Positions 1,846 through 47,487 of a DNA stretch of 48,469 nucleotides are shown here, piece by piece; position 1 is the first letter of the stretch; every line of letters begins with the position of its first letter. Made by a program: the position numbers and the translations under genes. This stretch comes from a virus, in IMG/VR virus record IMGVR_UViG_3300042430_001199, positions 1 to 48,469 of that record. One strand, given 5' to 3'. The notes beneath the pieces were generated by a model, which made no database searches, was not told the origin of the DNA, and worked only from the letters and a program-made list of their open reading frames with translations.

Positions 1846-1860
1846 AATTTAAATTTTAGT

Positions 1861-1929
1861 TGCGGCGATGGGACTCGAACCCACATCAAAGGAGACAATC
1901 CAATATGTTACCAATTACACTACTCCGCT
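1861..1929 (-). tRNA. tRNA-like gene T1, probably degenerate
   Basis: The T-arm is good (stem GUGGG/CCCAU, loop UUCGAGU) and a D-arm can be drawn (GUGU/ACAU with a GGUA-containing loop). The acceptor stem has two mismatches, and only 20 bases separate D-arm and T-arm. The best anticodon stem (UUGGA/UCCUU) pairs only in its three inner positions and leaves a five-base loop, UUGUC, instead of seven. If real the anticodon would be GUC, but I cannot fold a canonical tRNA. It may be a pseudo-tRNA. Confidence 0.4.
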
Positions 1930-1980
1930 TAACTATATGAATTCTTGTATCTAAATCGTTACCCAAATTCATTATAGTGT

Positions 1981-2094
1981 AGATAGGACAGGATTCGAAC
2001 CTGTTCGATTTCACCGTAGGACGTAACGAGACTGCTACTTTCAGAGTGTTACTATATCCCCTCACCTCTGCGTCTACCCATCCGCCACCTATCT
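1981..2094 (-). tRNA. tRNA-like gene T2 with enlarged central domain
   Basis: Acceptor AGAUAGG pairs perfectly with CCUAUCU. A Leu-type D-arm (GCGG...GUAGACGC) and a perfect T-arm (ACAGG, UUCGAAU, CCUGU) follow. At 114 bases it is too long even for a class II tRNA. The part between D-arm and T-arm contains a CAGAG/CUCUG stem closing a 19-base loop, then further pairing (GUAAC/GUUAC), so no standard anticodon loop is evident. A TAnnTTTG promoter lies just upstream. Confidence 0.55.
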
Positions 2095-2105
2095 ATATTA
2101 ACATT

Positions 2106-2113
2106 TCAAAGAT
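2106..2113 (-). promoter_or_regulatory. Bacteroidota-type promoter for T2/T1
   Basis: On the minus strand this reads TATCTTTG, matching the -7 consensus TAnnTTTG, with TTG 20 bases upstream matching the -33 element. It lies 11 bases before the 5' end of T2 and would also serve T1. Confidence 0.55.
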
Positions 2114-2156
2114 ATGTTTTTTTATTTAATTAAACAATACCTTCGTTATTTTTTGT

Positions 2157-2271
2157 AGTCAGGACAAGATTCGAACTTGTAAGACACAGTAATACAGTAC
2201 TGCATCATCCCTGTATGGATATGTGCGTCTACCAACGACCGAGTTACCTCAATCCCTTCCGCCACCTGACT
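2157..2271 (-). tRNA. tRNA-like gene T3 with expanded D-loop
   Basis: Acceptor AGUCAGG/CCUGACU is perfect and the T-arm (ACAAG, UUCGAAU, CUUGU) is canonical. The D-arm begins GCGGA and ends UUGGUAGACGC like a tRNA-Leu D-arm, but about 22 extra bases sit inside the D-loop. The centre contains a five-pair hairpin UAUCC/GGAUG with a six-base loop AUACAG, then a CAGUACUG palindrome. No seven-base anticodon loop with U33 is obvious. Length 115 bases. Confidence 0.5.
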
Positions 2272-2272
2272 A

Positions 2273-2441
2273 AAAATGTGTGTTTTTAAATTATCCCTAG
2301 AACACACAAACTATGCCGACATACGATTCGGAGAGCGTCCACGCCAACATATGTGTAAACCCGAAGGTCTTTTTATTTCAACCCATATCTGTAATCTCTA
2401 TCTTCGTTCCTTAGCGGTGCACCACCAGAGGGCTAATTCAG
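2273..2441 (-). other. Non-coding stretch between tRNA-like genes, with hairpins
   Basis: No convincing gene lies here. A plus-strand open frame crosses the region but runs straight through tRNA-like gene T4. On the minus strand there is an eight-pair hairpin TGTGTGTT/AACACACA (2277-2308) and an ACC-UUCG-GGU tetraloop hairpin. It may be processed spacer or a separate structured RNA. Confidence 0.35.
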
Positions 2442-2442
2442 C

Positions 2443-2585
2443 AGTCAGGACAGGATTCGAACCTGTACGATTTGAAAAGACCGATTTTATTCGGTTCTTG
2501 GGGATGGTCAACATATTTAATGTGATGTCTCACGGCCCCATTAATCAAATCACCCATTACACGTCTACCATTCCACCACCTGACT
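2443..2585 (-). tRNA. tRNA-like gene T4, the longest of the array
   Basis: Acceptor AGUCAGG/CCUGACU and T-arm ACAGG/CCUGU are perfect and identical to those of T5 and T6. The D-arm is GUGGAAUGGUAGACGU. At the position of the anticodon stem, UAAUG pairs with CAUUA and, inside it, GUGAU pairs with AUCAC, but they enclose a large loop rather than seven bases. A second hairpin (ACCGA/UCGGU, loop AUAAAA) sits where a long variable arm would be. Length 143 bases; decoding identity cannot be assigned. Confidence 0.5.
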
Positions 2586-2590
2586 GTTAG

Positions 2591-2821
2591 TTAATTATCT
2601 AAATTTTCTGTTTTAACATCAATTGTGTCCCTGAATGAAGAGTCAACCAAAACCCCCCAACTCATTCCGATTGGATGTGTATCAAATCCCGAACCCCTCA
2701 AATTATCTGCAACCCAAGCCATTCTTTCACCTCTTGGTCTTTTACAAAATACGGGGTCGTTTGTTGTCACTAACACCATTTCAAACATTAAATCAATCAA
2801 TTTTTGTTCTCTATTATTCAT
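2591..2821 (-). CDS. Hypothetical protein inserted in the tRNA-like array
   Basis: A 76-residue protein between T4 and T5. It has an N-terminal helix (EQKLIDLMFEM), a central RMAWVADNLRGSGFDTHP block and a hydrophobic SWGVLV segment. The WVADxLRGxGFDT pattern resembles small phage proteins that I recall but cannot name. It is the only protein-coding gene within the array and is not disrupted. Confidence 0.6.
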   Translation of the reverse strand: MNNREQKLIDLMFEMVLVTTNDPVFCKRPRGERMAWVADNLRGSGFDTHPIGMSWGVLVDSSFRDTIDVKTENLDN

Positions 2822-2835
2822 ATCTTATTTTTAGT

Positions 2836-2948
2836 AGTCAGGACAGGACTTGAACCTGTATGTGTGAACCAAACTTTTTGATAGGAGTTCCCGAGCTCTG
2901 ACTATCACACTTACCACCGTTAGCGTCTACCAATTCCGCCACCTGACT
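2836..2948 (-). tRNA. tRNA-like gene T5 with enlarged central domain
   Basis: Acceptor AGUCAGG/CCUGACU is perfect, the D-arm GCGGAAUUGGUAGACGC is a textbook tRNA-Leu D-arm, and the T-arm is ACAGG, UUCAAGU, CCUGU. Between them lie about 60 bases, against the roughly 32 expected for a class II tRNA. This segment folds on itself through GUGUG/CACAC and, inside, GAUAG/CUAUC, so the anticodon cannot be placed. It contains AACTCCTA and GTTCACA, which also occur in the repeat units of the ncRNA near 9.2 kb. Confidence 0.5.
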
Positions 2949-2964
2949 CGGACTCGAACCGTTG
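2949..2964 (-). other. Orphan tRNA T-arm remnant
   Basis: On the minus strand this reads CAACGG-UUCGAGU-CCG, a T-arm loop and partial stem, lying directly against the 5' end of T5. There is no matching acceptor or D-arm upstream. It looks like the 3' remnant of a lost tRNA gene. Confidence 0.35.
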
Positions 2965-3020
2965 AAAACACACACCTTTCAGTGCCAACAAAACCCTGAC
3001 CCCAAAGTTTTATTGTCAGT

Positions 3021-3118
3021 AGTCAGGACAGGATTCGAACCTGTATATCTGGTACCCATTTTTACCGTTAGGTGTTTAAACCCACTGACCAACGCTTTTA
3101 CCATTACGCCACCTGACT
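3021..3118 (-). tRNA. tRNA-like gene T6, possibly tRNA-Leu(UAA)
   Basis: Acceptor AGUCAGG/CCUGACU and T-arm ACAGG/CCUGU are perfect. The likely anticodon arm is UGGGU/ACCUA with the six-base loop UUAAAC, giving anticodon UAA if one loop base is missing. A four-pair variable arm GGUA/UACC follows, as expected for tRNA-Leu. About eight extra bases lie between the D-arm and the anticodon arm. At 98 bases it is one of the less deviant members of the array. Confidence 0.55.
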
Positions 3119-8112: not shown

Positions 8113-8589
8113 TTAGTCTATAAAATAAACGATTTTTTTTCCGATTTTAACTGAACGATAATGTTCTAATGATTCTCTGATAACGGTCTCACCGTCTCTA
8201 GTTACGATAACACGTCTTGTTTTGTGTTTATCGTTAAATAATTGTTTTGGATGTTTGATTGATGTGTTAATTTTCAATTCTAATTTATTAGTCTTCAATG
8301 TTACCCAAAGTTGGTAATCGAACCCCATTGAATAATCACTTACTAATAAACCACATCTTCTTTCACAAGTATCTAATACCACCAATCCTTGTGTTACAAT
8401 AACTTCAATGATATCTCTCATTGATTCTAATATTTCTTCTTTGGGAACTCTACCGAATGTTGTATTATCCATTACCGCAACATCAGACTCACGAGTGCTG
8501 GTTACATCAACAACAAGACCGTTGACAACAAATCTGTCAAATAACCTACTCTCAGTAATTAATGTCGATAATAATTTTAATAACTTCAT
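8113..8589 (-). CDS. Unknown protein with (I/L)xE N-terminal motif
   Basis: A 158-residue protein opening MKLLKLLSTLITES, with I-T-E at residues 11-13, the peptide type described for the larger virion-class genes in this window. The rest is probably alpha/beta, with FGRVPKEEILESM and a long beta-like centre. It begins at the stop of the gene upstream, which has the same N-terminal motif, so both are probably expressed together. No enzymatic motif seen. Confidence 0.65.
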   Translation of the reverse strand: MKLLKLLSTLITESRLFDRFVVNGLVVDVTSTRESDVAVMDNTTFGRVPKEEILESMRDIIEVIVTQGLVVLDTCERRCGLLVSDYSMGFDYQLWVTLKTNKLELKINTSIKHPKQLFNDKHKTRRVIVTRDGETVIRESLEHYRSVKIGKKIVYFID

Positions 8590-9062
8590 AATTTAAATAC
8601 CCCCCAAAGTTGCCCAAATATTTTACTTAAAAACCTAGTTTCCAATCTATTCAAAGGTATATCATTATAATCGTAAGCTTCATCAAACATTTCACCTTCC
8701 TCATCATATTGCCACACTTCAGTATGTGCAAAATCAGTACTAATAGACATTATTCTAGATTCATACTGAAACTCTCTACCAGCATCTTCATTATAATCAC
8801 TCCAACTTTGATATAAGATATCTTCCCAATAGTCGTGAAGATAAATACTTGATTCATTTTCTATTCTGTTATTAACCTCAACACATTCATTTAAAAAATT
8901 AATAACACGTTCTCTATCCCATTGTGATGTATCACCTGAATAAAAATAATCAGGGTATATTTTATCAAAATTTTTATACCCACCAATATTTCTAATGGTT
9001 TTAACTATACCATATTTTTCAATTATTTTATCTAACTTATTCTCAGTTAATATTATTTTCAT
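8586..9062 (-). CDS. Unknown acidic protein with capsid-targeting-like N-terminus
   Basis: Read from the ATG at 9062 (158 residues); the longer frame begins upstream of the promoter-like motif. It opens MKIILTENKLDKIIEKYG, with L-T-E at 5-7 and I-I-E at 13-15 on an amphipathic helix. The rest is rich in Asp, Glu, Tyr and Trp. The ATG is preceded by AATATTTATTGAT, the same sequence found before two other genes of this class. Probably a late, virion-associated product; exact function unknown. Confidence 0.7.
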   Translation of the reverse strand: MKIILTENKLDKIIEKYGIVKTIRNIGGYKNFDKIYPDYFYSGDTSQWDRERVINFLNECVEVNNRIENESSIYLHDYWEDILYQSWSDYNEDAGREFQYESRIMSISTDFAHTEVWQYDEEGEMFDEAYDYNDIPLNRLETRFLSKIFGQLWGVFKL

Positions 9063-9084: not shown

Positions 9085-9114
9085 AAAAAACCCCCAATGT
9101 ACTTGGGGGTTTAA
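9085..9114 (-). terminator. Rho-independent terminator of the ncRNA
   Basis: On the minus strand, AAACCCCC pairs with GGGGGTTT around a nine-base loop and is followed by TTTTTT. It ends the non-coding transcript that starts near 9310. Confidence 0.8.
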
Positions 9115-9130
9115 ATTTCATCCTTTGGAT

Positions 9131-9297
9131 TGAGGTGTTTAACCCGAACCGCCTCACCCGATTCTTAGTGGTCAGATTGTGAACTAGGAGTTCTGACATC
9201 CTGATGGTTTCACTTACTAAGTTGGGGTAATCAACCCGTATCATCTCACCTGATACTTAATGGTCAGATTGTAAGTTAGGAGTTCTGACATCCTGTG
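9131..9297. repeat. Tandem repeat, period 92 bases, two copies
   Basis: Copy 1 (from 9131) and copy 2 (from 9223) align without gaps for about 75 bases. The best-conserved part is GTCAGATTGT, then GGAGTTCTGACATCCTG. The differences fall largely in paired positions of the predicted RNA. Confidence 0.8.
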
Positions 9298-9313
9298 TGA
9301 CACTCACACACTA

Positions 9314-9321
9314 CAAATATA
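9314..9321 (-). promoter_or_regulatory. Bacteroidota-type promoter of the ncRNA
   Basis: TATATTTG on the minus strand, with TTG 19 bases upstream. Nothing but the ncRNA lies between it and the terminator. Confidence 0.6.
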
Positions 9322-9359
9322 ACTATCTTTTGGATATGCACAACACCTGAGTGAAAATT

Positions 9360-11362: not shown

Positions 11363-11911
11363 TTATCCATCAATTACTGAGAATCCTTCAACATTAATTG
11401 GTACACCCGTATATCGTGTTATCAAATCAAAAAATTGACCATTAATATCTGAAACAAAAGTATCTTTTACTTCCCAACCTTCAGTCATATCCAACTCCGA
11501 ATACCAATCATATAATGTAGTATCAATATAATCGTAATCTCCATTATCATCATTCCATACAGGAGCACCATTAACATCACCATAACAATCTATAAACACA
11601 GGTAAATAACCATCATATGGGTTAATCTCACTACCTACATCATAGATTGAATAATAAAACTCACCCTCAAATTGTGCATCATTTATTTTAATCCTATCAG
11701 GTAATTCTTTTAACATTTTTTTAGCAACCTCAGTAGCACCGTCTCTACCACCAAGGTAATCAAATAAGTAATCCAACAAAGTGTCTTCATCACTTTTAAA
11801 TAATTTATACAGTCTACTACTTACATAAGGTTGTTGACCTTTACTTTTTTGATTATCAAAATATCTGAATATCACATATTTTAAATTAGATTCCGTAATT
11901 ATAACTTTCAT
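11363..11911 (-). CDS. Unknown acidic protein with capsid-targeting-like N-terminus
   Basis: A 182-residue protein opening MKVIITESNLKYVIFRYF, with I-T-E at 5-7 followed by an amphipathic helix. The remainder is acidic and aromatic, with a run of Asp, Gly and Tyr around residues 115-140. It resembles in composition the acidic protein at 8586-9062, though I see no clear alignment. A TATTTAT motif directly precedes the ATG. Inferred virion-class; function unknown. Confidence 0.7.
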   Translation of the reverse strand: MKVIITESNLKYVIFRYFDNQKSKGQQPYVSSRLYKLFKSDEDTLLDYLFDYLGGRDGATEVAKKMLKELPDRIKINDAQFEGEFYYSIYDVGSEINPYDGYLPVFIDCYGDVNGAPVWNDDNGDYDYIDTTLYDWYSELDMTEGWEVKDTFVSDINGQFFDLITRYTGVPINVEGFSVIDG

Positions 11912-19218: not shown

Positions 19219-20883
19219 TTATTTTACATTATATTCACTTCTTACATCGTAGAGATAATCGGATAACATTTCATTATAGTTATTTTTATCAACGCTTGGA
19301 TACCATCTATCATCAGGGTCCCACTTTGGTTTTTCAATTTCACCTTCATACGCAAGTTCCTTAAAGGTACATTCAATATCATCATCACATCTTTCAAAAT
19401 ATTCATCAAGATAATCAGAATGAACATCATCAAAATATCGTTGTGTATCTATATGTAAGATTACCCCCTCATCATTCATTTTCTCAATTGTCCCATATTC
19501 TTGTAACGCATCTTTTAATAATCCATATAAATAATTAGAGTAATCATCCGCTTCAGCGTTACTTTGAGCATTACCTAACGCACTTTGTATACTATGATTA
19601 TCATCATATTCTTCAATAATATCCTCAATATCCATTTCGTCAAAATCTTCAGCAATGAATTCATCATCATCACGTTCAGCAACTTTTCTTAAAATTTCTC
19701 TAATTTCTTGTTCATTCTTATCATCTACGTAATAGTTAAGACAATCTCTCCAATCCGTATAGTCATTATAATATAAATCCCAAGTTTCTCCCGCTAATAT
19801 TAATTCAAACATTGTAACTTCAACAGTTCTTTCATATTCTTGACCCGCAGGTGTTGTAACCTTTTTCTTATATCTTCTATAAACGTAATCACCATCAACA
19901 TATCTTGTAACATCATCAGGGTCTATATTAAGTGTAATATTATAGTTAACATTAGGAGCATCAATTATACCCATATCAACCAATTTTCTCATCATCACTC
20001 TACCTTCAAACAATTCAGGTCTATTTCGATATAACTCTCTGATAACATCATCAGGTAAGTCACTTAATTTGAAATCCTGTTGTGACGCGTATTCGGTTCC
20101 AAATCCTTTAACTAAATAATCATCTTCTTCACCTTCACCACCTAACACATAAAACAATGGTAAAATGTAGTTATGGTATTCTTCTTTAGGTTTAGAGTTC
20201 TTAGGACCTTTTAATTGATACATAATACCATCATGTCCAATTGCGGTTGTTAAATGACTTCTATTGATTTTGAATTTATCATTAATAGGTTTTGTTTCTC
20301 TTAATGAATATATATACCCATAATTTGAACGACCACAGTGACCCATTCTTTCAGACTCTTCCTTCGAATCCTTAGTATTCAAGTCAGCCCAATAAAACCC
20401 ATTACCATTTTCATCACGGAAGTCTTTAATTATGTCATTTTTCTCAACATAATTAATATCACCTTGACCAATACTCAATGATTCGTGCCATTCCTTAGCT
20501 TTCTTATCTAACTCTTGTAATGTTAAGTTTTTAAATGGTTTAACATTACTATTCAACCCAACTCGAACCCAATCCATAACATTAATAATGTTTGGTCTTA
20601 TCCTACTAGTTAACCCATTGACATTTATTAAATTAATCATTGCTTTATCGGATAAATCCTCCATATTTCTAATTCTAGCCGTTTCTCTTTGGAAATCTTT
20701 TATCTTACTTAACATCCAAACCGATAACCCACCGCATAACTCATCAAGTAATTCCGCTTGGTCTTGGTCTAAACCTTCTTTGTCTGTTAATATTTTTAAT
20801 TTCGAAGCTTCAAGTAGTAAGTCATCTTGAATACCCATCATAGATTGCATCTTACTAATTTGTTCGGCTAATATATTTCTCAT
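19219..20883 (-). CDS. Large protein with MGHCG motif and capsid-targeting-like N-terminus
   Basis: A 554-residue protein. It opens MRNILAEQISKMQSMMG with L-A-E at 5-7. Around residues 175-235 lies a conserved-looking core: EESERMGHCGRSNYGYIYSL, then SHLTTAIGHDGIMYQLKG, which I recall from phage proteins with an ExxxMGHCG signature (function unknown to me). The C-terminal third is very acidic. A TATTTATTAATAA motif is upstream and a terminator is directly downstream, so it is a single-gene unit. Inferred to be packaged in the virion; the His-Cys motif may be catalytic or metal-binding. Confidence 0.75.
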   Translation of the reverse strand: MRNILAEQISKMQSMMGIQDDLLLEASKLKILTDKEGLDQDQAELLDELCGGLSVWMLSKIKDFQRETARIRNMEDLSDKAMINLINVNGLTSRIRPNIINVMDWVRVGLNSNVKPFKNLTLQELDKKAKEWHESLSIGQGDINYVEKNDIIKDFRDENGNGFYWADLNTKDSKEESERMGHCGRSNYGYIYSLRETKPINDKFKINRSHLTTAIGHDGIMYQLKGPKNSKPKEEYHNYILPLFYVLGGEGEEDDYLVKGFGTEYASQQDFKLSDLPDDVIRELYRNRPELFEGRVMMRKLVDMGIIDAPNVNYNITLNIDPDDVTRYVDGDYVYRRYKKKVTTPAGQEYERTVEVTMFELILAGETWDLYYNDYTDWRDCLNYYVDDKNEQEIREILRKVAERDDDEFIAEDFDEMDIEDIIEEYDDNHSIQSALGNAQSNAEADDYSNYLYGLLKDALQEYGTIEKMNDEGVILHIDTQRYFDDVHSDYLDEYFERCDDDIECTFKELAYEGEIEKPKWDPDDRWYPSVDKNNYNEMLSDYLYDVRSEYNVK

Positions 20884-21554: not shown

Positions 21555-22757
21555 TTAATCTTCAGTTCCCCAATGAATTTTACCTTTCATATTGGTTGAC
21601 CAATCTTTAGGACCTTCACCCCAAGTTTCACATTTCATTTGAGTATTTGGTTCACCAATTTTACATTTAGATTGGGTTTTTGGATTCCAAACCCAAGCAA
21701 GGTCAATAGTTGGTATAGTACGTGGAATATCAGGAACATAAAATGCCGCAACATAATCATAACTAACATTTTTCGTTCCATCCTCATTAGTTGGGTCAAT
21801 AGGGATTTTTCTCTTACCTGAAATAACCAAATCTAAGGCAATTTCTAAATATTTATCCTGTTCATAATCATCAGTGTTTTTTGACGCTCCAGGTTGACCC
21901 CAAATATTACCACTGTTACTTGACGCCCCTAAATATTTACCCGTAAGACCACCTTCCCAATCATCTTCATAAATTAATTCAGGTGATATCTTAACCCCAA
22001 TTGATTGTAATTCTTTAAGAACAAAATCTTTTGCCGATTTGTTTCTTAATTTAGATAATTCAGCAAATGTGTGAACTTTACCATCAGGTGATTTACCATT
22101 AGGTAATGTTGAACAAGATGTTCTAACTGTGATTCCATTTAAAACACCTTGACCGTTAGGTGTATTTGACAATTCATCTTTAATATTTTTAAGGGTAGTT
22201 TCTCTAAATTTTGTAACAAATTGTATATCTAACGCCCAACTATTATCAACAAAATATTTTTCACTTTTTAAATCATCTTTAACAGGAAACTTTTTAGTAA
22301 ACGGTATTTCACCTCCAGGTTCACCTGTTGGTTTAGTTGTTGTTGTTTTTTCAGTTCTCTCAAATTTAAGTTTCGGATTTTTAACCCCACTTTCAATAAG
22401 CATTTGATACGTTTTAATTATTAGAGCTCGGTATTTTGGGTTTATTTGTCTCATTGTACCCATAAAATGACTTCCGTTACGTTCACCCAATTGATAAGAT
22501 AATCTTTGCCCATACCCACTTTTATTTAACTCTTTAACTTCATCGTCACTAATAAGACTGTTAACTTCTTCAGTTTTTATTGACTGTGGTAAATAAATAG
22601 TATAACCATCTTGCTTATTTCCAAAAATTGCACTCAACCAAGGTGCTGATTTACGCCCAAAACTTAACTGAGGTGAAAAATTTTTATTCTGTTGTTCATT
22701 AATACCCCTCAATAATTTTTTATACTGAGATTCAGTAATCATTATTTTATGTTTCAT
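21555..22757 (-). CDS. Unknown virion-class protein with capsid-targeting-like N-terminus
   Basis: A 400-residue protein opening MKHKIMITESQYKKLLRGIN, with I-T-E at 7-9 and I-N-E at 19-21. The segment around 205-250 (ITVRTSCSTLPNG, then FAELSKLRNKSAKDFVLKEL) has the LSxxRxxxVxxxL order of an OmpA-like peptidoglycan-binding domain, but the match is weak. Trp-rich C-terminus. A TATTTATTAATAA motif is upstream. Likely a late gene; function unknown. Confidence 0.65.
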   Translation of the reverse strand: MKHKIMITESQYKKLLRGINEQQNKNFSPQLSFGRKSAPWLSAIFGNKQDGYTIYLPQSIKTEEVNSLISDDEVKELNKSGYGQRLSYQLGERNGSHFMGTMRQINPKYRALIIKTYQMLIESGVKNPKLKFERTEKTTTTKPTGEPGGEIPFTKKFPVKDDLKSEKYFVDNSWALDIQFVTKFRETTLKNIKDELSNTPNGQGVLNGITVRTSCSTLPNGKSPDGKVHTFAELSKLRNKSAKDFVLKELQSIGVKISPELIYEDDWEGGLTGKYLGASSNSGNIWGQPGASKNTDDYEQDKYLEIALDLVISGKRKIPIDPTNEDGTKNVSYDYVAAFYVPDIPRTIPTIDLAWVWNPKTQSKCKIGEPNTQMKCETWGEGPKDWSTNMKGKIHWGTED

Positions 22758-27501: not shown

Positions 27502-27969
27502 TTATTCCAAGAATTTCAACTTATAAATAGTTGAGTAAATTAATTCTTGAACTGTGTCTATTTGATTTTGAATGAAACTTTCTTTAACTGATTTTCTTGA
27601 ACTCTCAATTGTTTTATCCAATTTCTGTAAGTATTCAATTGCACTATTAACACTAGTGTAATTATCGTAACCATCACATTTATAATCCTCAACAATTCCG
27701 TGTTTACCTTGATATGATTCAACTAAACCGTCAAATAAATCAACAACACCATCATAATAATCATTTAAGGCTTTATGAACCGCAAACGATTTTGTTTGTA
27801 AATGATATATATGTATTTGAGTTCTTGAATGTAAAATCCCTGAAACTATATCAACAAATGACCCGCTTACTTTACCTTCAGATTTTTCAACGTTAGTATC
27901 ATCCTTTTCCTCTTCCTGTTCGAATAGTCTTTTATTCAATATTGATTTTTTACTAAAAACTTTTTCCAT
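27502..27969 (-). CDS. Dps/ferritin-like protein (DUF5856-like) with capsid-targeting-like N-terminus
   Basis: A 155-residue protein. L-F-E at 15-17 in MEKVFSKKSILNKRLFEQEE resembles a prohead-protease site. After a linker, LHSRTQIHIYHLQTKSFAVH followed by KALNDYYDGVVDLFDGLVE matches the first two helices of Dps-like four-helix bundles (H-x(2)-H-x-x-T-K-S-F-x-x-H, then D-x-x-D-x-x-x-E), as in phage DUF5856 proteins. The His/Asp/Glu residues could bind iron. If packaged, it might protect or compact the phage genome. A TATTTATAAATAA motif is upstream and a terminator downstream. Confidence 0.72.
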   Translation of the reverse strand: MEKVFSKKSILNKRLFEQEEEKDDTNVEKSEGKVSGSFVDIVSGILHSRTQIHIYHLQTKSFAVHKALNDYYDGVVDLFDGLVESYQGKHGIVEDYKCDGYDNYTSVNSAIEYLQKLDKTIESSRKSVKESFIQNQIDTVQELIYSTIYKLKFLE

Positions 27970-28992: not shown

Positions 28993-29349
28993 TTAAAAAT
29001 CGTCACCGAAATCAACGTCCTCATCATCATCTTCGTAATCATCATCTTCGTAATCTTCATCATCCTCACCTTCACCTTTTGTCTCATTCATTAAGAAATC
29101 AAATACTTGGTCCATATTGTTTTTTGCTTCAGCAATATGGTCCTGAGCCCAATCGTGACCGTTTTCTAATATCTCATTAATTGTTGATTCATCCATTTCC
29201 AATAACATTTCACATTGTCTTTTAATTTGTTCCAAATTACTAAAGAACATATATCGAGAGTTATTGTGATTACCACCTTCATTAATGTTATTTTTCAATC
29301 TATTAACTAAAGTTTCTAATTGTTTTTCATTTATAATAATTGTTCCCAT
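28993..29349 (-). CDS. Unknown protein with capsid-targeting-like N-terminus and acidic tail
   Basis: A 118-residue protein. It opens MGTIIINEKQLETLVNRLKN with I-N-E at 6-8 and a second I-N-E at 22-24, separated by an amphipathic helix. The centre, NLEQIKRQCEMLLEMDESTI, then GHDWAQDHIAEAKNNMDQV, resembles a phage family I recall (I-L-x-x-G-H-x-W-A-x-D-H-I-x-x-x-K). The last 25 residues are nearly all Asp and Glu. It may bind basic partners or mimic DNA inside the capsid. A TATTTAT motif is upstream. Confidence 0.68.
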   Translation of the reverse strand: MGTIIINEKQLETLVNRLKNNINEGGNHNNSRYMFFSNLEQIKRQCEMLLEMDESTINEILENGHDWAQDHIAEAKNNMDQVFDFLMNETKGEGEDDEDYEDDDYEDDDEDVDFGDDF

Positions 29350-33130: not shown

Positions 33131-33472
33131 ATGAATATTCGAATTAATAATAACAAGTTTGTAGTAAAAACTATGATTACCCCCAAGGATAAATCAAACG
33201 GTATGATGGGAAAAAAGTTTACATCACCAAATCAAGGTATGTTATTTTTAATGGATGATGCCGACCATTGTTTTTGGATGAAAAATTGTGTGATACCTTT
33301 GGATATAATCTTTATTAAAGATGGTATGATATCAAACATCCACCACAATTGTCCCCCTTGTAAATCAAAAGATTGTGGAAACTATTGTGGTGAAGGTGAT
33401 ATGATTTTAGAAGTTAAAGGTGGTACATGCAAACGTTTAGGTATTAAACTTGACGACCGAATAGAATTTTAA
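33131..33472 (+). CDS. DUF192 protein with added Cys cluster
   Basis: A 113-residue protein. SNGMMGKKFTSPNQGMLFLM, then HCFWMKNCVIPLDIIFI, then DMILEVKGG match the DUF192 order (G-L-M-x-R, M-x-F, F-W-M-K-N-x-x-I-P-L-D-x-x-F-x, L-E). The IHHNCPPCKSKDCGNYCG insert adds four Cys and two His, more than usual, possibly a metal site. DUF192 proteins are found in many bacteria and their function is not settled. It ends four bases inside the convergent DHH gene. Confidence 0.82.
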   Translation: MNIRINNNKFVVKTMITPKDKSNGMMGKKFTSPNQGMLFLMDDADHCFWMKNCVIPLDIIFIKDGMISNIHHNCPPCKSKDCGNYCGEGDMILEVKGGTCKRLGIKLDDRIEF

Positions 33473-34914
33473 CCTTCTTGTATTTTTTGTTGTAATACTC
33501 TTACAAATTCGTTTTGAATCATTTTTGTAAACTTAACCGATGGTGAATCATCTTCACTTTTTTGGTAACTTCCACCTCCTGATAATTTCTGAGGGTTCTT
33601 ACCTAAATAACTAAGACCTGATATATTCGTAATACATTTGTGTCCACCACTATTAGCTTGAATTATATCCCAAGCACTAACAGTTACTTTCTCCATAATA
33701 GATTTTTGTTTATCACTTAAACTATTATAATGTCTTTGCATTATATTACTAATAATGTTTAATAATTCAGGTCCGTTGTTAATCTTACTAAATTTTTCAC
33801 CATACAATGCTTCAAAATCTTTAAACGTAAAACCAACTGACTCAGTATTTAATTTGTTCTCAGATACCCATTTGATTGTAGATAATGGAATTTCTTTTTG
33901 TTTTAATTGTGTTTCCCATTTAGATAACACCTCATCTTTAACCTCACCTAAGTTAACACCTTTCAATGCTCTCTCTTTTTTGAATGGATTACAAGACGCT
34001 TGAACTAACCCCAACGGCCAAGCAATAACTATAAAGTCAGCTTCAGGATTGTTTTTAAATGGTGTATACCTATCATAAGAACCAGGTTTCATCATATTAC
34101 CACCACCGTATTGAACAATGATATTATCCATAACTTTAACGTTAGGATGATTCTTCATTGATTGAACGTAGTTGTCTCTATTTTGTTGTAGAACATCAAC
34201 TGACGCAAACCCCTTCTCTTTCATAATTCTCTTAATGTTAGTTAAGATATTAAGTAAAGATGGTGTTGATTCCATAACCAATTCTTCTAAGAAATCAGGT
34301 TTGTTTTTAAACGCCAATAATAATTTATTAATCGTCAAACCAAGAGCCATTTTGTTTTTTGGAACTGATTTTTCTTTATCTAAGTTGAAGATGTAATTAT
34401 TAACCTCATCAACTGTGATATCGTTTGGTGCAAAATTCGCCGAGTCAACCGTCGAGATTAATAACAAATCATCACTTGGGAATAATTCTTTTGGTGATAT
34501 TGATTGTGATATAGTTTCAACATTTGAACGTGATGATTTAAAGTTTGTTGCAGTCCCTGATTCAACACCCGCTTGTGTGTCGTGGTGGTCTGTGTGAATA
34601 ACAAACATTGGTTTACCGTGAGCAAAGTCAACCAATACAGGCATAACATCACCACTACCTTCAGGTTTTTTAATCGACCATTCTTTATCACCGTATTGTA
34701 TTACCTCACAATCAACGGTTTCAATCCCATATTGTTTTAAATATTCTTTCATCGCAATCGCAGTTGTTACACCATCCAAATCTTGATGAAAATAAATTTT
34801 AGCTTTTCGATATCTCTCAGCGATTTTATTAATATCACGAATCCCTGACTCCATTATCATTCGTTTAATGACATCGGTCATTTGATTCTCATTTAATCTT
34901 ACTATTTTTTTCAT
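33469..34914 (-). CDS. DHH-family phosphoesterase with capsid-targeting-like N-terminus
   Basis: A 481-residue protein. MKKIVRLNENQMTDVIKRMI has L-N-E at 7-9 and I-M-E at 20-22. The catalytic domain follows at once: HQDLDGVTTAIAM (D-x-D at 45-47), VDFAHG at 95-100, and TDHHD at 108-112, the DHH motif that binds two Mn2+. SGGHK near residue 425 is the DHHA1 substrate motif. DHH enzymes include RecJ and nanoRNase. A packaged DHH enzyme could degrade short nucleic acids or signalling dinucleotides after entry; this role is inferred. The gene begins at the last base of the pre-toxin-like gene's stop. Confidence 0.85.
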   Translation of the reverse strand: MKKIVRLNENQMTDVIKRMIMESGIRDINKIAERYRKAKIYFHQDLDGVTTAIAMKEYLKQYGIETVDCEVIQYGDKEWSIKKPEGSGDVMPVLVDFAHGKPMFVIHTDHHDTQAGVESGTATNFKSSRSNVETISQSISPKELFPSDDLLLISTVDSANFAPNDITVDEVNNYIFNLDKEKSVPKNKMALGLTINKLLLAFKNKPDFLEELVMESTPSLLNILTNIKRIMKEKGFASVDVLQQNRDNYVQSMKNHPNVKVMDNIIVQYGGGNMMKPGSYDRYTPFKNNPEADFIVIAWPLGLVQASCNPFKKERALKGVNLGEVKDEVLSKWETQLKQKEIPLSTIKWVSENKLNTESVGFTFKDFEALYGEKFSKINNGPELLNIISNIMQRHYNSLSDKQKSIMEKVTVSAWDIIQANSGGHKCITNISGLSYLGKNPQKLSGGGSYQKSEDDSPSVKFTKMIQNEFVRVLQQKIQEG

Positions 34915-35987
34915 TATTTAAACAAAGGATTTAAAAAAACTTCTAACGGGTTTATACCCATAATATCTTGAGTATTTAACCCACCATCTGTTTGTTGGGT
35001 TTGTGTATCACCACCTGAACCAAAATCTTGATTCCATGTTTGTTGAGCCTTTTCAGTTTGATTATACTTATTAACTTGTTGTTCTATATTCGGATACTTA
35101 ATCATTAATTCATCAGGTGTTGTTTTAAAATCACCAATACCTAAGAAATCAAGAAACCCTAAATACCATTTAGTTCTTCTCATTAATGACCTAGTAGCCG
35201 GATTACCACCAAATATTCGTGGTGCTCCCGCAGTGAATTTTTTCCAGAGTGATACGTCCTTAGATGAAATGTACTTGAGGTATTTATTTTTAAACCCACC
35301 AAAATCTCTAAACCCTCTAAAAGTATTTTTTAACGTTTCCTTTTCCGCAAGACCGATACCTTTGGTTACCTCAGCACCAAGTTTCATTTCTTTACTAGCG
35401 GTTACAAACACTGAAACATATTCCTCAATTAACTTAAACATTCGTCTTAGTATTGGAACTTTGTTTCCCGCATTTTTTAAAATTTCTAATAATTTAACAC
35501 CCCAAGTAGGTGAAGTACTAACAAATTTACCAATAGCTCCACCTGATTTAGTTGCAGTTTCAGCAACTTTAGCAGCATCACCCGCAAGAGCTGCGGCTTT
35601 AAACATTTTAGCAGTATCACCACCTAATTTTAATGCACCAATAACAGGTTTACCAATCACGTCACCGATTAATGGTACTACAGAAATCCAAGACAGTAAC
35701 GCAAATAACTTATCATCTTGTCTCCAATAACTAATACCGTTGATAACATCAATCACACCTGTAGGGTCAAAAATACCGGCAATATCACCTAAAGTATTAT
35801 ACCATTTAGATTCTTGTATTAATTTAGATTTATCAGGATATATGACTTTTAGAAATTCTAATACGAATATTTTTTCCCCTTTACTTAATTTAGACCATTT
35901 CTCATTTAAAATGTTTTTTTGTTCTTCTAAGTAAATTTTATTAACAACGTCTTTAAATTCGTGTTTATTAATAATATAATGGCTCAT
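34914..35987 (-). CDS. Pre-toxin-domain-like (PT-TG) virion protein
   Basis: A 357-residue protein. Near residues 60-120, WYNTLGDIAGIFDPTGVIDV followed by NGISYWRQDDKLFALLSWIS and VVPLIGDVIGKPVIG resembles the pre-toxin domain (G-D-x-x-G-x-x-D-P-T-G-x-x-D-x-x-N, then L-S-x-I-x-x-x-P-x-x-G-D). A hydrophobic Ala/Gly-rich stretch follows, then a basic helical region and a Gln/Thr-rich tail. L-E-E at 20-22 and L-N-E at 27-29 fit the (I/L)xE pattern, though the opening I-N-K does not. A late-type motif is upstream. It may act on host membranes during entry. Confidence 0.65.
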   Translation of the reverse strand: MSHYIINKHEFKDVVNKIYLEEQKNILNEKWSKLSKGEKIFVLEFLKVIYPDKSKLIQESKWYNTLGDIAGIFDPTGVIDVINGISYWRQDDKLFALLSWISVVPLIGDVIGKPVIGALKLGGDTAKMFKAAALAGDAAKVAETATKSGGAIGKFVSTSPTWGVKLLEILKNAGNKVPILRRMFKLIEEYVSVFVTASKEMKLGAEVTKGIGLAEKETLKNTFRGFRDFGGFKNKYLKYISSKDVSLWKKFTAGAPRIFGGNPATRSLMRRTKWYLGFLDFLGIGDFKTTPDELMIKYPNIEQQVNKYNQTEKAQQTWNQDFGSGGDTQTQQTDGGLNTQDIMGINPLEVFLNPLFK

Positions 35988-45990: not shown

Positions 45991-47487
45991 TTAATTAATT
46001 CTCATCACAACGTAATAATCACCGCCAATTTTAATTTCGTCATAACTCCCATCATAACCATTTAAATCACCATAATCACTATCACGAGATAAATCTTCCA
46101 CAACACCATCCATATCAATATAATCACGAATACTTCTACTGTCATAACCCATTTGATTTTTTAAGAAATCATATGGGTCTTGTCTAATATCATATAATTT
46201 ATCTTGAACTTCAGATTCAATCATTTCATCAGTAACTTCACCCCTCATTTCATCAATCTCCTCTTGAGCATCTTCTTTTTTCTTTTCAGCCTCATCAATT
46301 AATTCTTGAATCCTATCATATTCTTGAGAATATTCATCAGGGTCTTCAATCTCATCTTCAAGTGATGATTGTTTTTCTTCCATTTCCTCAATATATGATT
46401 CCAATTCTTCAATATATGATTCCATATCTCTTTTTCTACTTTCTTGTTCCGGACTTAATTCCAAATCATCAAGATTAAAATACACATCTAAATTATCTCG
46501 AATATCACCTTCATAATATTCTTCAAACTCTTCAGCAACCCTATCACCATCAATGTTATTTTCAATTATGTATTGTTGAATACCATCAACCCCAATGTCA
46601 TCCAATAAATTCTCCCAATATTCTTTTAACGCCTTATCAGCTTCATCGTTTGTTCCTACAGCATATTCTTTTAAATTACCTAAATTACCTTGGTCTCTAA
46701 AATTAAACACAGTCATTTCACCATAATGACTATAACCTGTTGGTAACGCATCGTATACGTCATAATAAAGACCTGTCATCTCATCAATTCTAGCTTCAAT
46801 TTCATCAATTTCACTAGTTAATTCAACAATCCTATCATCATCATCAGTCTCATTATATTGGTCGTTAAGTAATTCTAATCTACGTTTCAACCCATCAAAT
46901 TCCTCTCTGGACTCCTCATCCCATATATCAATACGCTCATTATTATCAATGTATTCTAGTAACGCGTGTGCTTTTGCTGACTCATCATCATTTTCAACAT
47001 CATCCCACTCACCACTTTCACGTCTTTCATTAGCTTCATCTAATTTACTTTGAAATTCTTTTCTCAACCTTGCGGTTTCAATAGGTGTTCCCCAATCTCT
47101 AATTGAACCACTAACTCTAACTCCTTCAACCGTACTAACTTTAGTACTTGAAATATCTAAAACTCCGTCAACAAAATCTAATTCACCTAATGACTGTAGA
47201 TTGGATAATCTACTAACATCCAAACGACCCTCAACACCGTGTAATTTACCCAATGTTTTAACTTTATCATTACTTGGAAAGTTAAGGTCACCAGCAATCA
47301 CAACCTTTTTATCTTTATATTTTTTTTGATTTAAAATCGCATCAACACTATTGGTGTATTTAAATAATTTTAAAAACTCAGTAGGTAATATCTTAACAAT
47401 TTCACTTTCGGATTCATTCTCAGTTTCTTCTATGATTAATCTGACTAGTTTTCTAAGGTCCGACTCTATTAGTTTAAAATTTTTCAT
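45991..47487 (-). CDS. LRR and coiled-coil protein with capsid-targeting-like N-terminus
   Basis: Read from the ATG at 47487 (498 residues). MKNFKLIESDLRKLVRLIIE has L-I-E at 6-8 and I-I-E at 18-20. Residues about 60-130 form irregular leucine-rich repeats (SRLSNLQSLGELDFVDGVLD). The rest is an exceptionally acidic coiled coil with runs of Glu/Asp (YIEELESYIEEMEEKQSSLE). Its size, acidity and leader with the AATATTTATTGAT-like motif suggest a packaged virion protein; function unknown. Confidence 0.7.
   Translation of the reverse strand: MKNFKLIESDLRKLVRLIIEETENESESEIVKILPTEFLKLFKYTNSVDAILNQKKYKDKKVVIAGDLNFPSNDKVKTLGKLHGVEGRLDVSRLSNLQSLGELDFVDGVLDISSTKVSTVEGVRVSGSIRDWGTPIETARLRKEFQSKLDEANERRESGEWDDVENDDESAKAHALLEYIDNNERIDIWDEESREEFDGLKRRLELLNDQYNETDDDDRIVELTSEIDEIEARIDEMTGLYYDVYDALPTGYSHYGEMTVFNFRDQGNLGNLKEYAVGTNDEADKALKEYWENLLDDIGVDGIQQYIIENNIDGDRVAEEFEEYYEGDIRDNLDVYFNLDDLELSPEQESRKRDMESYIEELESYIEEMEEKQSSLEDEIEDPDEYSQEYDRIQELIDEAEKKKEDAQEEIDEMRGEVTDEMIESEVQDKLYDIRQDPYDFLKNQMGYDSRSIRDYIDMDGVVEDLSRDSDYGDLNGYDGSYDEIKIGGDYYVVMRIN

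Follow-up and report, generated by a model that had tools for sequence, protein, structure and literature searches.

T4 RNA C and D, GOLLD and ROOL are stable phage-associated RNAs of unknown function. Like the RNA described here, they are discrete and structured (for structures of GOLLD and ROOL, see PMC12286853). Phages are also known to carry RNA mimics directed against RNA-dependent defences, namely pseudo-ToxI (PMC5449768) and the Racrs (PMC10651486), the former being a phage-borne RNA mimic in phage PhiTE (PMC8860590, PMC5449768). In ToxI (Rfam RF02519), as in the present locus, tandem repeats precede a terminator and each repeat forms an H-type pseudoknot, the stem 1 of which has four pairs with two G-C pairs in the middle (PMC8860590, PMC5449768). 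The Racrs provide another likeness, in that they are small phage ncRNAs that occur as solitary repeat units and mimic CRISPR repeats (PMC10651486).

The present locus lies on the minus strand, from 9343 to 9085, of a 48,469-nucleotide stretch of virus DNA (IMG/VR record IMGVR_UViG_3300042430_001199, in the following called the window), and consists of a promoter, a leader hairpin, two units and an intrinsic terminator (Table 1). The RNA predicted from these signals has its 5' end near 9310, its 3' end near 9085 and a length of about 222-225 nt. The original prediction had proposed an RNA with its own promoter (a TTG 19 bases upstream) and terminator; both are present on the minus strand, and the promoter recurs in relatives. 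The two tandem 92-base structured units that it named are also found, each 91 nt long and with a spacing of exactly 92 nt.

Table 1. Features of the ncRNA locus and related features in the window (paired strands separated by a slash)
Feature	Positions	Strand	Basis
Promoter, Bacteroidota type, TTG (9343-9341)-N19-TATATTTG (9321-9314)	9314-9343	minus	sequence and relatives
Predicted leader hairpin P0, GUGUG/CACAC	9295-9309	minus	sequence comparison
Unit 1 (5' copy)	9207-9297	minus	covariance model (E 2.6e-18) and pair counts
Unit 1 P1, AGGA/UCCU	9294-9291 / 9281-9278	minus	sequence and pair counts
Unit 1 pseudoknot, GUCAG/CUGAC	9289-9285 / 9267-9263	minus	sequence and pair counts
Unit 1 P2, GUAUCA/UGAUAC, loop GGUGAGA	9256-9251 / 9243-9238	minus	
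Unit 1 P3, GGGU/ACCC	9237-9234 / 9228-9225	minus	
Unit 1 P4, then UGAAA	9222-9219 / 9215-9212	minus	
Unit 2 (3' copy)	9115-9205	minus	covariance model (E 1.3e-17) and pair counts
Unit 2 P1	9202-9199 / 9189-9186	minus	
Unit 2 pseudoknot	9197-9193 / 9175-9171	minus	
Unit 2 P2, GAAUCG/CGGUUC, loop GGUGAGG	9164-9159 / 9151-9146	minus	
Unit 2 P3, GGGU/ACCU	9145-9142 / 9136-9133	minus	
Unit 2 P4, AUCC/GGAU	9130-9127 / 9123-9120	minus	
Intrinsic terminator, CCCCC/GGGGG + U6	9085-9110	minus	sequence, relatives
Next gene, 158-aa ORF, not part of the RNA	8586-9062	minus	gene context and upstream motif enrichment
ORFs with shared N-terminal pattern	8113-8589, 8586-9062, 11363-11911, 19219-20883, 21555-22757, 27502-27969, 28993-29349, 33469-34914, 34914-35987, 45991-47487	minus	

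Unlike ToxI, the phage unit has the extra stems P2-P4 and often occurs singly, and 2-5 nt lie between its pseudoknot strand and the 3' strand of P1. The RF02519 covariance model has no match at the locus and reaches at most 19.4 bits elsewhere, which is chance level (cut-off 50), and the ToxN domain PF13958 is below cut-off everywhere in 16 carrier records and absent beside the locus. Since searches gave neither a match to the family model nor a toxin gene, the RNA is not a member of ToxI, and at most it may work like pseudo-ToxI. Unlike the Racrs, the multi-helix unit of 57-92 nt exceeds typical CRISPR repeats in size and complexity, and it shows no similarity above chance to the Rfam CRISPR repeat families. 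Unlike GOLLD and ROOL, the phage RNA is far smaller and is matched by no Rfam model: a scan of the window with Rfam 15, at gathering score and with E up to 10, gave only chance matches for it, as did a scan of the distant relative L018, which agrees with the earlier statement that it belongs to no known family. BLAST against named phages with four queries gave no true match. The RNA family is new relative to Rfam 15, and its kind, a structured phage RNA that is perhaps a decoy, is already known. It is a well-supported family, absent from Rfam, that spans many large phages of uncultured hosts, and its pseudoknot core is simple enough for in vitro testing.

Each unit contains an H-type pseudoknot formed by P1 and the pseudoknot helix. 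The three hairpins originally described for a unit are correct as far as the named stems are concerned, including the base changes in P2 and P3 that preserve pairing around the loop GGUGAG(A/G), but there are five helices, and the pseudoknot, P4 and the leader hairpin had been overlooked. Pair statistics were obtained from a model-based alignment of relatives (A4, 24 distinct rows), MAFFT having misplaced P1 of L108 and L112. In this alignment 95.1% of the cells pair according to the five-helix model, compared with 27-49% when the partners are slid by 1-3 columns, and changes on both sides of a pair occur in 58 cells, a number reached by none of 500 shuffles (mean 20.3). Such changes are seen in all six pairs of P2 and in three of the four pairs of P4. 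P2 and P4 are confirmed in this way by the relatives, and by this comparison the structure of the unit is shown to be under selection, as had been suspected from the two copies in the window. Single units have an ordinary minimum free energy (z from -1.15 to 0.84), and the structural evidence is therefore comparative rather than thermodynamic.

P1 is near-invariant, with GGGA/UCCC in one divergent unit (L054 unit 2). The GUCAG/CUGAC pseudoknot helix is invariant in near relatives, its first pair being lost in some, and in L108, L112 and L113 it is GUUAG/CUAAC, so that a C-G pair is replaced by U-A on both sides with P1 kept. This change is one evolutionary event, and the pseudoknot therefore has less covariation support than P2. 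A competing helix, GG.UGUCAG/CUGA.CRYY, which excludes P1, fits 97.4% of the cells and shows no two-sided change outside the core that it shares with the pseudoknot; it could be an alternative state or a conformational switch. Its site corresponds to A4 columns 5-14 with 34-42 (9293-9285 with 9267-9259 in unit 1 of the window). R-Y-Y is found without exception in the three columns that follow the pseudoknot strand on its 3' side, and these columns could lengthen the pseudoknot helix at the cost of P1.

The near-invariant unpaired elements are A..A.AAU before the pseudoknot strand, GGUG in the P2 loop, UUNA in the P3 loop and the UGAAA tail, and loops are more conserved than stems. A conserved core with drifting P2 and P4 stems is as expected of an RNA that would bind a protein or another ligand. 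Conserved loops would also suit a small RNA that uses the GGUG loop of P2 and the A-rich loop preceding the pseudoknot for base pairing with mRNAs of host or phage, and the unit occurs both as a stand-alone RNA and in 3' UTRs, forms that are typical of bacterial sRNAs. The most conserved segments, however, lie within the P1/pseudoknot core, and the P2 loop has only about four conserved bases, so we regard base pairing with mRNAs as quite unlikely.

That the locus contains no open reading frame, as originally stated, holds in the sense that no frame is conserved among the relatives, although short frames exist in single copies. In many units, a frame from an AUG in P1 (MSELLTYNLTIK..) is open for 14-30 codons and might encode a small peptide. 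The frame is shifted by +1 in L029 unit 2 and by -1 in L079 unit 2, L104 and L114, it is stopped by a UGA within P2 in L001, L018 and unit 1 of the window, and in L108 and L112 it stops within the pseudoknot strand; furthermore, the changes in P2 preserve pairs yet alter amino acids. From these frameshifts and stops follows that a conserved peptide is ruled out, and we give a coding function next to no chance. In L108, L112 and L113, the leader that immediately precedes the unit is longer, about 60 nt, and may contain a frame of 19 codons (MSKKRGGNPNTSKDGDKEC), which has few differences, mostly synonymous, and ends inside the pseudoknot strand. This leader may equally be a hairpin leader.

Relatives were collected by pattern scans of IMG/VR and then with the covariance model R1. 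The scans gave 41, 26 and 120 matches, many of which were chance matches in coding sequence that the model search separated out. The covariance-model search that had been suggested for the family finds the unit in a further 33 phage contigs of IMG/VR, among which are near-identical copies of the same phage, with identities down to about 55-65%. With the window included, 26 contigs have one unit and 8 have two, and there is one locus per carrier record. Two full 92-nt units occur in the window, L002 and L005; in a more compact tandem arrangement the first unit is 57 nt and lacks P3-P4 (L029, L035 and L057, and, with a divergent second unit, L054 and L079). A single unit with its own promoter is found in L001/L004, L003, L040/L045, L053/L055/L073/L074, L066, L104/L109/L121/L124, L114 and L127, and L108/L126, L112 and L113/L119/L125 form a distant group.

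The single units of L001 and L003 share 95% identity with unit 1 of the window, and those of L009 and L028 share 80-82% with unit 2; the two window units are 73% identical to each other. Each is closer to single units of other phages than to its neighbour, and they are therefore old paralogues. From this follows further that the compensatory differences between the copies reflect the long divergence of two lineages that were later joined or kept in tandem. Close relatives differ in copy number: L035 has two units and L040 one, and their last units are 97% identical. Since about three-quarters of the contigs carry one unit, and since there are two tandem layouts (92-nt full units, or a 57-nt shortened first unit), the tandem is optional. 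This argues against the cooperative aptamer, in need of two copies, that was once suggested by the duplication; the unit has rather the look of a module that acts in trans. The RNA decoy that was suggested at the same time would be compatible with the data.

The pattern TTG-N19-TAnnTTTG precedes 16 of 20 first-or-only units examined; its frequency in the window, with spacers of 17-21 nt, is only about 0.015 per 100 nt and strand. The exceptions are L003, which has the TAnnTTTG box only, and the 3'-UTR copies L009, L018 and L028. Leaders of other loci can form different stems, such as GUUG../..CAAC, and the terminator stems 3' of the unit in the relatives that were read are unrelated in sequence. 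These signals show that in most relatives the RNA has the makeup of an independent transcription unit, with a host-type promoter, a leader hairpin, one or two pseudoknot units and a terminator. The promoter is presumably of the host sigma type and used early.

In L009, L018/L024 and L028, a single unit lies in the 3' UTR of an unrelated gene, 4-5 nt past the stop codon and with a terminator behind. There, it could act as a 3'-end or exonuclease-resistance element that stabilizes the upstream transcript, and compact pseudoknots can block exonucleases. Most members have only a short leader and no upstream gene in the transcript, and as an account of the family this is very improbable.

A different cis-acting role, in which promoter, aptamer-like element and terminator set the read-through into the next gene as in an attenuator or riboswitch, is suggested by the layout itself, since promoter, element, terminator and gene follow each other as in attenuators. 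The unit is always just before the terminator, the next gene is co-directional in most loci, and P1 and the extended pseudoknot helix are mutually exclusive pairings. The next gene is convergent, however, in L108, L112 and L113, the terminators lie outside the unit and vary in sequence, the next genes belong to several families, and the unit also occurs in 3' UTRs. In addition, the motif AATATTTAT sits between the ncRNA terminator and the next gene in the window, so that the expression of this gene may be independent of ncRNA read-through. TATTTAT is found before the next gene also in L018, L035, L053, L066 and L104, and in L009 and L028 there is a TTG-N19-TATATTTG box instead. In the window, TATTTAT occurs at most 40 nt upstream of 14 of the 86 ORFs, many large ones included, where 1.5 are expected, and TATTTGT or TATATTTG upstream of 8, where 0.7 are expected; the former look like phage-specific (late?) and the latter like host-type (early?) promoters. 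Among the loci examined, we found neither a controlled gene that is always next nor a terminator that competes with an antiterminator in the aptamer, and cis-acting control is unlikely.

In one clade (L029, L035, L053, L066 and related loci) the gene order is a divergent adenine-methylase-like gene, the ncRNA, families F0 and F1 and a DnaJ-like gene. The unit is portable: it lies with its own promoter between the methylase-like gene and F0 or F1, or in 3' UTRs of unrelated genes. A Pfam search with the neighbouring proteins gave no matches.

The carriers are large viruses that probably infect Bacteroidota, and the promoters in the window are of Bacteroidota type. Their contigs reach 318 kb, one of them (the record of L024) has a T4-type gp23 capsid gene, and the only other phages found to share a 480-aa protein of the window, at 37-44% identity, are two uncultured huge phages, 634 and 642 kb in size. 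Conservation over such contigs, the single locus per record and the conserved neighbourhood in the F0/F1/DnaJ-like clade would all agree with a phage-internal, housekeeping RNA, in which the partner is a phage protein and the RNA serves in packaging, as a scaffold or as a guide-like cofactor. Copy number and surrounding genes vary, however, and the RNA does not keep a set place among the other genes. Because of this variation, and because the covariance model finds no copy in the distant huge phages that share the window protein (LR745206 and LR756502), the RNA is not universal. No TnpB/Cas12f-type domain was found in 16 carriers, which speaks against a guide-like cofactor. We consider a phage-internal role possible, though rather unlikely.

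The reading that we prefer, with a probability of roughly one in three, is that the RNA is expressed early and acts in trans as a ligand, most likely by decoying a host protein much as a mimic of a type III antitoxin does. The host RNA polymerase would make the RNA early in infection, and the RNA would fold into a compact P1/pseudoknot core beside the leader hairpin, so that the near-invariant single-stranded elements are displayed to a partner. The putative partner would be a protein of the host that the RNA titrates or keeps inactive; the most plausible candidate is a component, RNA-binding or RNase, of a system for antiphage defence or RNA decay. Two units would mean more binding sites per transcript, with each unit able to function alone. 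A role in trans is favoured because next genes may be convergent and are of varied families, because terminators do not overlap the unit and because downstream genes have motifs of their own. Decoys act early in infection, and early expression is what a host-type promoter with constant spacing suggests. A decoy would also fit the portability of the unit and its varying copy number.

Against a decoy it must be said that a mimic should resemble a host RNA, yet none similar was found in the bacterial genomes searched. Exact and loose pattern scans of the core in GTDB genomes gave no cellular counterpart, although divergent mimics would be missed by such scans, and none was obtained when 395 Bacteroidota genomes were searched with the model, a weak negative because the prefilters were strict (10 candidates scored per genome). 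Neither a toxin or defence gene adjoining the ncRNA nor, in the 16 carrier records, a ToxN domain above the family cut-off was found. That the core is conserved among phages that differ greatly in size is explained just as well by a phage-internal function. A more specific version of the decoy, which we hold to be doubtful, is a pseudoknot invented by the phage and uncopied from host RNA, which inhibits a defence protein that binds RNA, or one that acts in RNA decay, with a wide distribution among aquatic Bacteroidota, and is present in one or two copies in large T4-like and giant phages. If the RNA is a decoy, RNA-based counter-defence would extend beyond CRISPR and ToxIN, and the RNA could be used as bait for the targeted Bacteroidota host protein.

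Three further candidates were rejected. For a CsrA sponge, ACAAGGAUGU resembles the CsrA SELEX consensus, but its GGA is paired in P1, and Bacteroidota are not known to possess CsrA. A hammerhead- or HDV-like ribozyme has no matching core by eye and no Rfam match. A guide RNA of TnpB/IscB type would require variable leaders, but these are conserved within a clade, and a search for the zinc-ribbon domain PF07282 of Cas12f/TnpB gave no match in the 16 carriers, whose records may be fragments.

Two minor observations concern the rest of the window. ARAGORN, with introns allowed, reports up to six tRNA-like genes on the minus strand at 1859-3118, several of them 100-145 nt long owing to insertions, and Rfam tRNA matches lie at 2835-2948 and 3020-3118; the ncRNA is outside this cluster, with the nearest tRNA-like gene about 6 kb away. 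Many unrelated minus-strand proteins (Table 1) begin with a pattern of the kind MKxxIxExxLxxLIxRxIxEE, in many cases preceded by TATTTAT, and this pattern resembles a T4-like capsid-targeting signal, which may serve delivery with the virion.
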